From contig NZ_CP077077.1 in assembly GCF_019139675.1 (NCBI RefSeq), positions 4,216,001-4,280,000 on the forward strand: a stretch of DNA of 64,000 nt, read 5' to 3'. A program made the position numbers and the translations under genes. Source of the DNA: Pseudomonas maumuensis. GTDB lineage: Bacteria > Pseudomonadota > Gammaproteobacteria > Pseudomonadales > Pseudomonadaceae. A model generated the notes under the pieces. That model was given only the letters and a program-made list of their open reading frames with translations. It made no database searches and was not told where the DNA came from. Below, piece after piece: positions 4,760-29,690 of this stretch; the first letter of the stretch is position 1; the number at the start of each line of letters is the position of its first letter.

Positions 4760-6052
4760 TTATTGTTCGGTCAAGGCGGTGCCTGCACGGTCGAGCAGGG
4801 GTTTGAACAGGTAGTTGAGCAGCGAGCGCTCGCCGGTGCGCACGAACAGCTCGGCGGGCATGCCCGGGCGTATGGCCAGGCCCTGCAGACGCGCCAGCGC
4901 TTCTTCGCTAACCGTGCTGCGCAGCACGTAGTACGGCTGGCCACTGCGCTCGTCGATCAGCTGGTCGGCCGACACCAGCGCCACTTCGCCGGTAACCCGT
5001 GGCGTGCGGTTCTGGTTGAAGGCGGTGAACAGGATGTCCACCGGCAACTGCGGTGCCACCTTGTCCACCAGGTTCACCGGCAGGCGCCCTTCCACTTCCA
5101 GCGCGGTGCCCTGGGGCACGATCTCCAGCAAGGTATCGCCGGCCCGCACCACGGCGCCTTCGGTATGCACGCCAAGGTTCACCGCGATGCCGTCGGCCGG
5201 GGCGATAATCTCGCTGTGCTGCAGCTCAAAGTGCGCGGAGTTGAGCTGCTGCTCCAAGGTCGCGGCCTTGACCTGGGCTTCGGCCAACTGGCTGCGCACC
5301 TCTTTCTGATACTCTTCGCGGCGCTGCTGCAAGTTGAGCCGGGCCTCGACGATCACCTGCTCCAGACGCGCGCTTTCGCCGGCGTTCTGCGCCAGGTCGC
5401 GCTGCACCTGCGACAGCTGGCGCTGGTACTCCAGCACGCGGTTGCGTGGGATATAGCCCTCGCCGGCCAGCGGGCGCAGGCTGTCGAGCTGCTCGCGCAG
5501 CGAATCGGCCTGGGCCTGCAGGTCGCTGCGCGCCCGGCGCATGCCGGTCAACTGCGCCTGGGAGCCATCGATGCTGGCGGCCAGGGCGCCCTGCTCGCGG
5601 GCCTGGGCCTGGCGGCGGCTGTCGAACAGCTGGCGCTGGCCTTCGAGGATCAGCGCCAGGCGAGCATCGGCGTCTTCGAGCAGTTCCCCGGGAAACTGCA
5701 CCTGGCCAAGGTTGTCGCGCTCGCTCTGCCAGCGCGCCAGGGCGGCGCGGGTCATGCGGTACTGAGCCTGCAGCGCATCGACGTCGGCCTGCACCTGGGT
5801 GCGGTCGAGGCGGAACAGCGGCTCGCCCTGGCGCACTAACTGGCCTTCGCTGACCAAAATGCGGCTGACCACGCCCGCGCCCATGGACTGCACCGCCTTG
5901 CGCTTGCCCGACACCACCACGGTGCCCTGCACCGGCACGCCTTGGTCGAGCGGGGCGAGGCTGGCCCAGGCCATGAAACCGCCGAAACCGACCAGGGTCA
6001 GCCACCACCCCAGACGAACATGGAAACGTGCATCACGGGTGTGCTGGCTCAT
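4760..6052 (-). CDS. aprE: HlyD-family periplasmic adaptor of the type I secretion system
   Basis: A 430-residue membrane-fusion protein. A short cytoplasmic N-terminus is followed by one membrane segment ([21 protein letters not shown]), a lipoyl-like half motif ([18 protein letters not shown]), a long coiled coil (about residues 90-280), the second lipoyl half ([19 protein letters not shown]) and a beta-barrel domain with the [10 protein letters not shown] ending typical of HlyD/PrtE. Its ATG overlaps the aprD stop by four bases, so translation is probably coupled. It joins AprD in the inner membrane to AprF in the outer membrane. Confidence 0.92.
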
Positions 6053-7770
6053 GCGCCACCTCCGGCTTGCAGGGGTCGTTGCGCCGGGGCCTGGCCCATG
6101 GCGTGGAGGATGTCGCGGGCCGGGCCGAAGCCCTGCATGCGCCCTTCGTTCATCACCAGCAGCTTGTCGGCCTGGGCCAGCGCCGCGCTGCGGTGGGTCA
6201 CCAGCACCACGGTGCGGCCCTGGGCCTTGAGCTGGACGATGGCGTTGGCCAGGGCGGCTTCGCCGTGGCTGTCGAGGTTGGAGTTGGGTTCGTCGAGCAC
6301 GATCAGCCGGGCATCGCCGTACAGGGCGCGGGCCAGGGCGATGCGCTGCTTCTGGCCGCCGGACAGGTCCACCCCCTCCTCGCCGAGGCGCGTGTCGTAG
6401 CCCTGGGGCAGGCGCAGGATCAGGTCATGCACGCCCGCCAGGCGCGCCGCCTCGACCACCTTGATGCCGTCCAACTCGCCAAAGCGGGCGATGTTCTCGG
6501 CGATGCTGCCACGCAGCAACTCGATGTTCTGCGGCAGATAGCCGATGTGCGGGCCCAGTGCGTCGCGGTCCCATTGGCTGAGTTCGGCGCCATCGAGGCG
6601 CACATGGCCGCTCAGGGTCGGCCAGACGCCGACCAACACTTTGGCCAGGGTCGACTTGCCCGAACCCGAAGCCCCCAGCACGCCGAGCAGCTCGCCCGGC
6701 GCCAAGGCGAAGTTCACTTGTTGCAGGGTGGCCAGGTTGCGCCCGGGCGGGCCAGCGCTGACCTGCTCCACCGCCAGTTGCCCGGTGGGCACCGGCAAGG
6801 GCATCGGAGTCGGCGGCTCGGGGTGCTCGCGCAGCAGCCCGTCCAGGCGTTGGTAGGCCAGCTGCGCGCCGCTCCATTGCTTCCATACCGCGATCAACTG
6901 GTCGATCGGCGCCAGCACCCGGCCCATGAGGATGGAGCCGGCGATCATCATGCCCGGGGTCATCTGCCCCTCGATCACCAGCAGCGCGCCCAGCCCCAGC
7001 ACCAGCGATTGCAGGCACAGGCGCAGGCCTTTGCTGGTGGCGGTGATCACCGCCGAGGTGTCGCTGGCCTTGTTCTGCAGGTCGAGGAACCGTCCGTGCA
7101 GGCTGAACCAGCGCTGGCGCAGCGCGCCAAGCATGCCCATGGCCTGGATGCTCTCGGCGCTCTGCAACTGGCTGCCGGCCAGTTGCGTCGACTGATGCTG
7201 GAAGCCACTGGCCTCGGCCAGGGTGGCATGGGTGAGGCGCTCGTTGAGGATCGCCAGGGCGATCAGCAGCAGCGCGCCGACCGTGGCCATCACGCCCAGC
7301 CAGACGTTGAAAGCGAAGATCACCGCCAGGTAGATGGGGAACCAGGGCGCATCGAAGAAGGCGAACAACGCGGGGCCGGTGATGAACTGGCGCAGCTGGG
7401 TCAGGTCGCCCAGGGCCTGGCCGGCGGCGCCGTCGCGCTGGCGCAGGTTGCGTTCAAAGGCGGCGCGATAGACCTTCAGGTTGAACGTCTTTTCCAACTG
7501 GTTGCCGACCCGGATGACAATGAAACTGCGTACGGCCTCGAGCCCGCCGATATAAACGAAGAAGCCGACAACCATCAATGTCAGCACCCACAAAGTTGTC
7601 GTGCTCTGCGAACTCAGTACACGGTCGTACACTTGAAGCATATATATCGACGGCACCAGCATGAGCAAGTTGATCAATGCCGTGAAACAGCCGACGCTGA
7701 TCAAAGTCGACTTATGTTCGCCGAGTGCCGCCCACAAAGGCGCCCCGGGCTTTTTGCTCGGTAGTTTCAT
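6049..7770 (-). CDS. aprD: type I secretion ABC transporter (permease-ATPase)
   Basis: A 573-residue half-transporter with an N-terminal six-helix membrane domain (to about residue 310) and a C-terminal ABC ATPase. The Walker A is GASGSGKST, the signature is [14 protein letters not shown], and the Walker B is [12 protein letters not shown] with an H-loop (VVLVTHR). There is no N-terminal C39 peptidase domain, as expected for exporters of RTX proteins with uncleaved C-terminal signals. It energises export of AprA. A 24-bp perfect palindrome lies just upstream of its start. Confidence 0.94.
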
Positions 7771-25150: not shown

Positions 25151-25200
25151 GTGCAAAATGCACTGTGCAAAATGCACGGGCGTGCAGAATGCAATGCACG
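25151..25200. promoter_or_regulatory. tandem palindromic upstream activating sequence
   Basis: Two exact copies of GTGCAAAATGCAC (25151-25163 and 25165-25177), each a palindrome with a 3-base centre, are repeated at 14-bp period. A third arm pair (CGTGCA ... TGCACG) spans 25181-25200. They lie about 85-135 bases before the expected start of the sigma-54 promoter, the distance used by bacterial enhancer-binding proteins. TGCAC half-sites recall NtrC sites, but the spacing differs. Confidence 0.7.
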
Positions 25201-25218
25201 ACCTCACAAATTTAAATA

Positions 25219-25231
25219 TAACTAATTGATT
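25219..25231 (-). promoter_or_regulatory. IHF binding site
   Basis: The minus strand reads AATCAATTAGTTA, an exact match to WATCAANNNNTTR. It lies in AT-rich DNA between the tandem palindromes and the -24/-12 element, where IHF bends DNA in sigma-54 promoters. Confidence 0.7.
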
Positions 25232-25258
25232 TTAAAGGAATTTATTTTGCGAGATGAC

Positions 25259-25274
25259 TGGCACGGTCGCTGCA
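25259..25274 (+). promoter_or_regulatory. sigma-54 (RpoN) promoter, -24/-12
   Basis: TGGCACGGTCGCTGCA matches the consensus TGGCACGN4TTGCA with one mismatch (C for the first T). GG at -24 and GC at -12 are 10 bases apart, as required. The implied start of transcription is about 25285, giving a leader of about 30 bases before the ATG at 25317. Confidence 0.8.
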
Positions 25275-25316
25275 ATCATCACCTCAAGTCTGCCAGTACA
25301 ACAGTCAGGAGTTGAT

Positions 25317-25589
25317 ATGGACCTCATCCAGGAAAAATTCGCCTCGGTCTTCGCCGCCTACCAGGTCGCCACCCAGCCACGTCCGGACGGTGGGGTCCTG
25401 CTGACCCTGCGCGCCAGCGACGGCGTGGTCACCCGCCGGGTGCTGACCTATGCGCAACTGCACAGCGCCGAGCAACTGTCCTGGGCGATCAGCGCCATCC
25501 GCCGCGACCTTGCCGGGCAACCGAGCGAGCTGCCGGTGATCTCGATGCTGCAAAGCCAGCAACGCTTCGCCCTGCCGACCTATCGCTGA
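25317..25589 (+). CDS. small DUF3509-like protein
   Basis: A 90-residue soluble protein (MDLIQEKFASVFAAYQVATQ at the start). It looks like the Pseudomonas DUF3509 family, whose function is unknown; recognition is from overall pattern (DGGVLLTLRASDGVVTRRVL, then LSWAISAIRRDLA). The ATG at 25317 has a CAGGAG site; an upstream extension would read through the promoter. It has a complete sigma-54 promoter layout, so expression should depend on RpoN and an activator, for example for nitrogen or carbon status. Confidence 0.75.
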   Translation: MDLIQEKFASVFAAYQVATQPRPDGGVLLTLRASDGVVTRRVLTYAQLHSAEQLSWAISAIRRDLAGQPSELPVISMLQSQQRFALPTYR

Positions 25590-27492: not shown

Positions 27493-28584
27493 TCAGAGCT
27501 GGCCCAGTACCGGGGTGCCCACCTTCACTTCGGCATTCTGCGCCCGGTGGCGCAGCAGGTGGTCCATCAGCGCAATGGCCATCATCGCCTCGGCGATCGG
27601 CGTGGCGCGGATGCCGACGCAAGGGTCGTGGCGGCCCTTGGTGATCACCTCGACCGGGTTGCCGTCGACGTCGATCGAATGGCCCGGGGTGGTGATGCTC
27701 GAGGTCGGCTTGAGCGCCAGGTGGGCGACGATCGGCTGGCCAGAGGAAATGCCGCCAAGGATGCCGCCGGCGTTGTTGCTGAGGAAGCCCTCGGGCGTCA
27801 TCTCGTCACGATGCTCGGTGCCGCGCTGGGCGACACTGGCGAAACCGGCACCGATCTCCACGCCCTTGACCGCGTTGATGCTCATCAAGGCATGGGCCAA
27901 CTCGGCGTCGAGGCGGTCGAAGATCGGCTCGCCCAGGCCCGGCATCACGCCTTCGGCGACCACGGTGATCTTCGCCCCTACCGAATCCTGGTCACGGCGC
28001 AGTTGATCCATGTAGGCCTCGAGCTCGGGCACCTTGTCCGGGTCGGGGCTGAAGAAGGCGTTTTGCTCAACCGAGTCCCAGGTCTTGAACGGGATTTCAA
28101 TCGGCCCGAGCTGGCTCATGTAGCCGCGCACGCGGATGCCCTGGGTGGCCAGGTACTTCTTGGCGATGGCGCCGGCCGCTACGCGCATGGCGGTTTCGCG
28201 CGCCGAGCTGCGGCCACCGCCACGGTAGTCGCGGATGCCGTACTTGTGGTGGTAGGTGTAGTCGGCATGGGCCGGGCGGAACAGGTCCTTGATCGCCGAA
28301 TAATCCTTGGACTTCTGGTCGGTGTTGCGGATCAGCAGGCCGATCGAGCAGCCGGTGGTACGGCCTTCGAACACGCCGGAGAGGATCTCCACTTCGTCCG
28401 GCTCCTGGCGCTGGGTGGTGTGCCGGCTGGTGCCGGGCTTGCGCCGGTCGAGGTCGTGCTGCAGGTCGGCAAGGGAGATTTCCAGGCCAGGCGGGCAGCC
28501 GTCGACAATGGCGACCAACGCCGGGCCATGGCTTTCGCCAGCGGTGGTGACAGTGAACAGCTTGCCGTAGGTATTGCCGGACAT
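27493..28584 (-). CDS. aroC: chorismate synthase
   Basis: A 363-residue enzyme that makes chorismate from EPSP using reduced FMN, the last step of the shikimate pathway. Family signatures are clear: [18 protein letters not shown] near the N-terminus, the Arg-rich [13 protein letters not shown] loop, [20 protein letters not shown], and the C-terminal [16 protein letters not shown]. Length is normal. It is followed by an inverted REP pair. Confidence 0.98.
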
Positions 28585-28727
28585 GGACGCTCCGCGAATC
28601 AGCCTGAAGTGAACGAAAGCGGCAGTATACGGAAAACCGCGTGGCTGTGGTTGCCCCGCGATGGGGCCCGCGAACCTTCAGAGCAACCCAATGTCGAAGC
28701 AACAATGTCCCACGTAGTACCCCGCCC

Positions 28728-29690
28728 ATGAAGTCGCGCCTCGCCGCCCTGCTCCTGCTGTTCTGCGCCAGCCTCGCCCAGGCCGCCCCCACCGTGCTGC
28801 AACGCCCCATCGACCTGGACACCGGCCAGGGCGTGCTGCATGGCAGCCTGCTGTTGCCGCAGCAGGCCACGCCGCCGCCGGTGGTGCTGATCATCGCCGG
28901 TTCCGGGCCTACCGACCGCAATGGCAACAACCCTGCCGCCGGGCGCATCGACAACCTCAAGCGCCTGGCTTTGCTGCTGGCCGGCGAGCACATCGCCAGC
29001 GTGCGCTTCGACAAGCGCGGGGTGGCCGCCAGCCAGCCGGCCACCCCGGACGAGCGTGACCTCAGCGTCGAGCGCTATGTCGCCGACGTGGTGGCCTGGG
29101 GCCGCGCGCTCAGGCAGGACCCACGCTTCGGCCCGCTGATCCTGGTCGGCCACAGCGAAGGCGCGCTGATCGCCAGCCTCGCCGCGGAGCAGGCCGGCGC
29201 CAGCGCGGTGATCACCCTGGCCGGCAGCGGCCGGCCGGTAGCCGACGTGCTGCGCGAGCAACTGGCCCAGCGCCTGCCACCGGCGCAACTGGCCGGTGGA
29301 GTGGCGCTGATCGACCGCTTGCAGGCCGGGCAGACCAGCCTCGACGTACCCGCGCCGCTGCGCCAGGTGTTCCGTCCCAGCGTGCAGCCGTACCTGATCA
29401 CCTTGCTGCACCAAGACCCGGCGGCGGCGTTCGCCCAGCTCAAGGTACCCGCGCTGATCGTCCAAGGCCGCAATGACATCCAGGTGGAGGTGGCCGACGC
29501 CGAGCGCCTCAAGGCCGCCAAGCCCGATGCGCAGTTGGCGCTGATCGACGGTATGAACCACATGCTGCGCATCACCCCGCGGGACATGGGCCAACAGCGC
29601 GACAGCTACCGTAATCCCGAACTACCGCTGGCACGGGAACTGGGCGAGCGCATCGTCCTGTTCATCCATGGGTTGCCACAGGCCGGATAA
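28728..29690 (+). CDS. exported alpha/beta hydrolase
   Basis: A 320-residue serine hydrolase with a signal peptide (LAALLLLFCASLAQA). The oxyanion region is LIIAGSGPTDRNGNN, the nucleophile elbow GHSEG (VGHSEGALIASL), and the late His lies in IDGMNHMLR. This matches the family of periplasmic esterase/acyl hydrolases with GSGPTDRNGN. The substrate is unknown. It diverges from aroC. Confidence 0.88.
   Translation: MKSRLAALLLLFCASLAQAAPTVLQRPIDLDTGQGVLHGSLLLPQQATPPPVVLIIAGSGPTDRNGNNPAAGRIDNLKRLALLLAGEHIASVRFDKRGVAASQPATPDERDLSVERYVADVVAWGRALRQDPRFGPLILVGHSEGALIASLAAEQAGASAVITLAGSGRPVADVLREQLAQRLPPAQLAGGVALIDRLQAGQTSLDVPAPLRQVFRPSVQPYLITLLHQDPAAAFAQLKVPALIVQGRNDIQVEVADAERLKAAKPDAQLALIDGMNHMLRITPRDMGQQRDSYRNPELPLARELGERIVLFIHGLPQAG

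Follow-up and report, generated by a model that had tools for sequence, protein, structure and literature searches.

AlgB, an NtrC-type response regulator and partner of the sensor kinase KinB, is best known for its role in alginate and, from newer work, for the control of light responses and group behaviour in Pseudomonas aeruginosa. A KinB/RpoN regulon was reportedly described in P. aeruginosa by Damron in 2012, and the regulator pair and the sigma factor are the same as those proposed here for the promoter of a DUF3509 gene. Sites of the NtrC type are TGCAC-N7-GTGCA dyads with half-sites about 7 bases apart. According to excerpts of review literature (PMC10418997 / PMC13001231), KinB and RpoN regulate algW, and AlgB binds three sites at algD of P. 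aeruginosa, as against the two-site module described below; the same excerpts disagree on which phosphorylation state of AlgB is the active one. An AlgB/KinB ChIP-seq study in P. syringae is cited in a section of PMC11957545, and a partial text of PMC6932827 describes the in-vitro phosphorylation of AlgB, including AlgB of P. putida, by BphP. In Vibrio, the upstream activating sequence (UAS) of LuxO is given as TTGCAWWWTGCAA in an excerpt of PMC10162802, and the LuxO ChIP sites in an excerpt of PMC10328515 include ttgcaaaatgcaa, located between qrr1 and VC1021 (= luxO). In the literature searched, neither an enhancer such as the one described here is stated for AlgB nor is DUF3509 named as an AlgB target; the figures of PMC8041468 may carry an AlgB motif.

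Results

Organization of the DUF3509 promoter

The window, that is, the whole 64-kb stretch of DNA that was analysed, contains upstream of a DUF3509 gene, in this order, distal, middle and proximal enhancer sites, an IHF site, a -24/-12 element, AGGAG and the ATG. On the side away from the DUF3509 gene, the promoter region is bounded by an ankyrin-repeat gene on the opposite strand. The features are as follows, with core positions counted from the T of TGGC:

25151-25163, plus strand: distal enhancer site GTGCAAAATGCAC, a perfect GTGCANNNTGCAC, TGCA-N3-TGCA core at -107
25165-25177, plus strand: middle enhancer site GTGCAAAATGCAC, a perfect GTGCANNNTGCAC, core at -93, an extra copy of the P. 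putida-type set
25182-25194, plus strand: proximal enhancer site GTGCAGAATGCAA, a GTGCANNNTGCAC with one mismatch, core at -76
25219-25231, minus strand: exact IHF consensus site, matching YAANNNNYTGATW
25259-25274, plus strand: -24/-12 element TGGCACGGTCGCTGCA of the sigma-54 promoter (25259-25273 reads TGGCACGGTCGCTGC)
25285, plus strand: predicted transcription start, placed by promoter geometry 12 bases past the C at 25273
25307-25311, plus strand: ribosome-binding site AGGAG, read from the sequence
25317-25589, plus strand: DUF3509 gene of 90 codons plus stop, ATG at 25317

The four ordered parts that the original prediction had placed before a DUF3509-like gene were all found where it had put them. 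Its tandem palindromes at a 14-bp period are the two perfect GTGCANNNTGCAC sites, and its third TGCAC dyad is the proximal site, whose TGCA-N3-TGCA core (25183-25193) is spaced 31 bp from that of the distal site; another TGCAC is located just downstream at 25195-25199, and 25182-25199 reads GTGCAGAATGCAATGCAC. The IHF site is an exact match, as predicted, to the IHF consensus YAANNNNYTGATW, and the one mismatch announced for the -24/-12 element is the single base by which TGGCACGGTCGCTGCA departs from the usual TTGC. The gene product belongs to the DUF3509 family of Pfam (PF12021; 111.5 bits against a cut-off of 25), in agreement with the predicted family.

Single GTGCANNNTGCAC sites with at most one mismatch occur near chance level in the window (7, three of them at this promoter, against 4.04 expected). 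Without mismatch, GTGCANNNTGCAC was found at four other places in the 5.76-Mb genome, three inside long open frames and the fourth before a gene read by eye as a flavin monooxygenase, and no sigma-54-like element was found within 5 kb downstream of this fourth site. The combination of enhancer sites and -24/-12 element, hereafter the module, was seen at none of the other single sites of the genome. Because a perfect copy of the four-fold core TGCANNNTGCANNNTGCANNNTGCA is found once in 5.76 Mb and the closest other places carry two mismatches, the ordered set of sites is not due to chance. The module is absent from the other two DUF3509 genes of the same genome (L091, L093), and a stricter module pattern, in which TTGC and a shorter gap were required, for that reason had zero matches in this genome.

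A leader hairpin, formed by pairing of ATCAACTC (present in many orthologs) with GAGTTGAT at the ribosome-binding site, was considered and rejected, since the first arm lies mostly upstream of the predicted start and since in three of four sequences the folding of the predicted leader does not surpass the mean of shuffles.

Conservation of the promoter upstream of orthologous genes

In named genomes, 218 relatives of the DUF3509 protein were found, the genomes with the closest proteins being those of the P. putida group, and the best 80 of the 218 were used together with the window, which gave 81 promoters. A -24/-12 element, defined as TGGCA-N7-TGC with its invariant GG and GC, is present in all 81, 42-48 bases before the ATG. 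All 81 likewise contain a TGCA-N3-TGCA pair 30-32 bp apart with at most one mismatch per site, and in 80 the middle copy is present as well, giving the 14-bp tandem; conservation of the repeats in orthologous promoters, a check set beforehand, was thus observed. Counted from the T of TGGC, nearly all sites lie at -107 to -109, -93 to -95 and -76 to -78, and the core reads also at -100 to -102, an overlap forced by the 7-bp register. The best match to the IHF consensus is perfect in 42/81 promoters, carries at most one mismatch in 67/81 and starts at -41 or -40 in 78/81, as compared with perfect matches in 6/405 shuffled spacers used as control. The complete sigma-54 promoter with enhancer and IHF site that had been proposed is backed by both sequence and conservation, and it is a promoter of a known kind that is very well conserved.

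A more distant set consisted of 30 Pseudomonas genomes picked for the absence of the exact four-fold core. A DUF3509 match of some kind was obtained in 28 of them and a clear ortholog, with 67-88% identity, in 22. The -24/-12 element is present upstream of all 22 distant orthologs and the TGCA-N3-TGCA pair upstream of 21, and a site at the middle offset was matched in none of the 22. Since the pair is kept without the middle copy, this comparison indicates that the module in its general form consists of two sites separated by about three helical turns, the 14-bp tandem resulting from an additional copy. The frequency of single sites in the window, being near chance level, would be in line with chance palindromes lying before an ordinary promoter; however, with order and spacing kept in 81/81 and in 21/22 promoters, and with the module repeated before unrelated genes (see below), we consider this explanation extremely unlikely.

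The promoter and the DUF3509 gene (81% identity) were also encountered at 28442-28882 of NZ_CP085705.1; this Pseudomonas record of 31.8 kb is classified as a plasmid but may be a chromosome fragment.

Occurrence of the module in Pseudomonas genomes

A broad four-fold pattern matched in 56 of 149 genomes and was dropped for a pattern that includes the -24/-12 element because many of its matches were 7-bp TGCAAGC repeats. Some Pseudomonas genomes, for example G113, G024 and G110, have tens of four-fold matches, and in other genomes the matches listed consist of arrays of the 7-bp TGCAAGC repeat. The module pattern employed instead, TGCANNNTGCA-N50..80-TGGC-N8-TGC, was detected in all 36 Pseudomonas genomes, two to eight times in each. 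In total, 164 module matches were obtained in the 36 genomes, versus 7 for the reversed control. Among the 150 matches listed (33 genomes), 100 have a length of 89-93, where 5/31 of the lengths would be expected (p 2e-43); the remaining third or so of the listed matches includes chance matches.

Genes for BON-domain, DUF1328, DUF2383 and other DUF3509 proteins lie behind the module in related genomes. The BON domain was confirmed with Pfam in the second target of the genome studied here (L223, 116 aa) and in the neighbour of its algB (273 aa), and proteins called BON-like from likeness, outside the Pfam scan, lie behind the module in further genomes. The one DUF2383 protein scanned with Pfam was confirmed and is second in its gene group (L224), and a DUF2383-like protein starts directly behind the module at three other loci (L238, L243, L245). 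DUF3509-type proteins behind the module reach 26.8 bits in G001 and 26.5 bits in G013 (cut-off 25), and a similar protein in G028 is called DUF3509-like from likeness, again outside the Pfam scan. Small or membrane proteins that belong to no Pfam family are found behind the module at L229 and L231. DUF3509 seems to be associated with the module repeatedly. Genomes that lack the ortholog have other DUF3509-type genes behind the module (L227, about 6000-6510 and 15100; L236, 5018-5524; L244, 4712), and in G001 there are two such genes.

Comparison with LuxO and NtrC sites

The TGCA-N3-TGCA core is identical to that of the Vibrio LuxO sites at qrr (TGCA-AAA-TGCA), and the promoters are sigma-54 promoters in both cases; moreover, in the excerpted ChIP data a LuxO peak adjoins luxO, as the module adjoins algB (see below). 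In contrast, the outer bases are G/C here and T/A in LuxO sites, and unlike in the LuxO qrr promoters the targets are protein-coding and the sites are paired 31 bp apart. Judged by the arrangement of its bases, the site core is of the LuxO type and not of the NtrC type. A LuxO regulon was nevertheless rejected, as none of the activators scanned in the genome (20 of 21; L126 was not scanned whole) reaches the LuxO cut-off of 800, the best score being 351.8 bits. A search of 143 genomes for a LuxO sequence to serve in comparison, at E <= 1e-200, gave 0/143 and is uninformative.

With NtrC promoters, the locus shares TGCAC half-sites and paired sites upstream of the -24/-12 element, and NtrC is encoded in the genome (L112, 790.5 bits), so that binding of NtrC to the TGCAC half-sites had to be weighed. 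However, the order of the half-sites is reversed (GTGCA-N3-TGCAC), the spacer at the inverted junction TGCAC-T-GTGCA measures 1 versus about 7 in an NtrC site, no dyad of the NtrC type was found in the promoter, and no module lies upstream of L112. The likeness to NtrC sites noted in the original prediction does not extend to half-site order and spacing, and regulation by NtrC is hardly credible.

Association of the module with algB

In three genomes without an ortholog of the DUF3509 gene, module promoters were found clustered around one operon, algB-kinB. The KinB sensor domain PF16767 was confirmed in the neighbour of algB in the genome studied here and in L224, and the AlgB of the former carries receiver, sigma-54 activator and Fis-type domains and GAFTGA. 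A set of 37 algB loci, from 34 of the 36 Pseudomonas genomes (all except G012 and G013) plus G224, G241 and G168, was examined for a -24/-12 element accompanied by two UAS sites at a distance of 30-32 bp, all within 420 bp of algB and on the strand divergent from it. This arrangement is present in 28 of the 37 loci, with offsets of -106 to -110 and -75 to -78, and absent in 9; because the loci are related by descent, these are not 28 independent events. Upstream of 19 other activator genes of the genome studied here (L126 being left out) it was found in 0/19. The same search was positive in 2/554 stretches of the 64-kb window and in 156/4396 stretches of 84 loci, 80 of which hold a DUF3509 promoter, and these counts fit two overlapping stretches per known promoter. 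In 6 of the 33 genomes listed (G001, G014, G027, G028, G041, G042), the exact module pattern is matched at a distance of 75-110 bp from algB.

An AlgB ortholog was detected in 6 of 115 genomes of the order, one of them a fragment, and the best AlgB match in the remaining 109 is far weaker (E 1.7e-94 or worse). In these 109 genomes, 60 module matches of random lengths were found, 12 of them in the range 89-93 (p 0.25), and thus the length signal is present in Pseudomonas and none is seen in the AlgB-less genomes, in a sample with only six AlgB genomes. In G224, from another family, the sole match in the whole genome lies about 65 bp from algB and is divergent from it. In G168, AlgB is present and no exact module match was found.

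The algB-side sites of the genome studied here have one mismatch each and are 24 bp apart in one of the two promoters. The gene group beside algB contains as its fourth gene one for Ivy (PF08816), behind a -24/-12 element with two imperfect sites. At this locus (L237, 8650-10607), the gene divergent from algB encodes the BON-domain protein, the group also comprises a 95-aa protein, DUF1328 and the Ivy-type lysozyme inhibitor, and each divergent gene set sits behind a -24/-12 element with imperfect UAS sites.

The genome encodes 21 clear sigma-54 activators, several of them without an assigned site, and when ten DNA-binding ends were compared with the LuxO model, AlgB scored 15.1 bits and those of two other activators, L126 and L116, slightly more (16.4 and 17.2 bits), and AlgB did not stand out as LuxO-like. 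It might therefore be argued that another enhancer-binding protein with LuxO-like specificity drives a real sigma-54 promoter here and that the algB-side module is one of its targets. However, the other activator genes looked at lack the module upstream, the only match in G224 adjoins algB, and the AlgB-less genomes have chance-like matches only, which makes this explanation improbable. It is from the genomic position of the module beside algB that AlgB is named as the probable activator, and with a core of the LuxO type and a module adjoining algB, AlgB is the best candidate.

L111 (G000:C1:3301046), an early candidate activator on account of its recognition helix, was dropped when the module was found to be absent upstream. 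It is a pseudo-receiver activator related to VpsR and reaches 414.6 bits with the PEP-CTERM regulator model (cut-off 502.6).

Discussion

What is observed directly comprises the sites with their fixed spacing and conservation, the repeated appearance of the module upstream of several other gene families, and its location next to algB; binding by AlgB, dependence on RpoN and IHF, and the nature of the signal are inferred. Very probably, the DUF3509 promoter is a sigma-54 promoter of the AlgB regulon and belongs to the KinB-AlgB system. AlgB would bind two TGCA-N3-TGCA sites 31 bp apart, a spacing of about three helical turns; in the P. putida group there is a third copy in between. IHF would bend the A/T-rich spacer between enhancer and promoter, the AlgB ATPase would open the sigma-54 polymerase at 25259-25274, and DUF3509 transcription would proceed from about 25285. 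Inputs to AlgB would come from KinB and, considering the published in-vitro work, from BphP.

The observation made in the original prediction is thus confirmed and its interpretation partly supported. The link of DUF3509 to the enhancer stands, whereas the palindrome, which had been regarded as impossible to assign, and its activator, which had been called unidentified, can now be attributed by comparison to AlgB as the candidate.

A wider reading, to which we give even chances, is that a sigma-54 regulon of envelope- and stress-type proteins is under direct control of AlgB throughout Pseudomonas and in some relatives (BON/OsmY-like, DUF2383, DUF1328, the Ivy-family lysozyme-inhibitor gene in the algB-side group and several kinds of DUF3509), which acts through one module of two TGCA-N3-TGCA sites 31 bp apart. 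Two signalling regulators of separate lineages, LuxO and AlgB, would then read the same DNA code, as suggested by the common core, and DUF3509 would be an effector that answers to KinB and, because BphP phosphorylates AlgB in vitro, to light.

As both a KinB/RpoN regulon and ChIP-seq of AlgB have been published before, the novelty is moderate. The gain, in all likelihood, is the assignment of the enhancer to AlgB and the sketch of a sigma-54 regulon under AlgB, with DUF3509 among its members. With a sharp motif and fixed spacing, lists of direct AlgB sigma-54 targets could be drawn up for any pseudomonad, and the DUF3509 family, whose function is unknown, gains a testable regulator and signal.

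A separate element was noticed in an AlgB-less genome (G210:C2:299096-299186), where TGCATTTTGCA is followed by an A/T-rich, IHF-like spacer and, at the usual length, by TGGC; possibly this is a promoter of the LuxO type.
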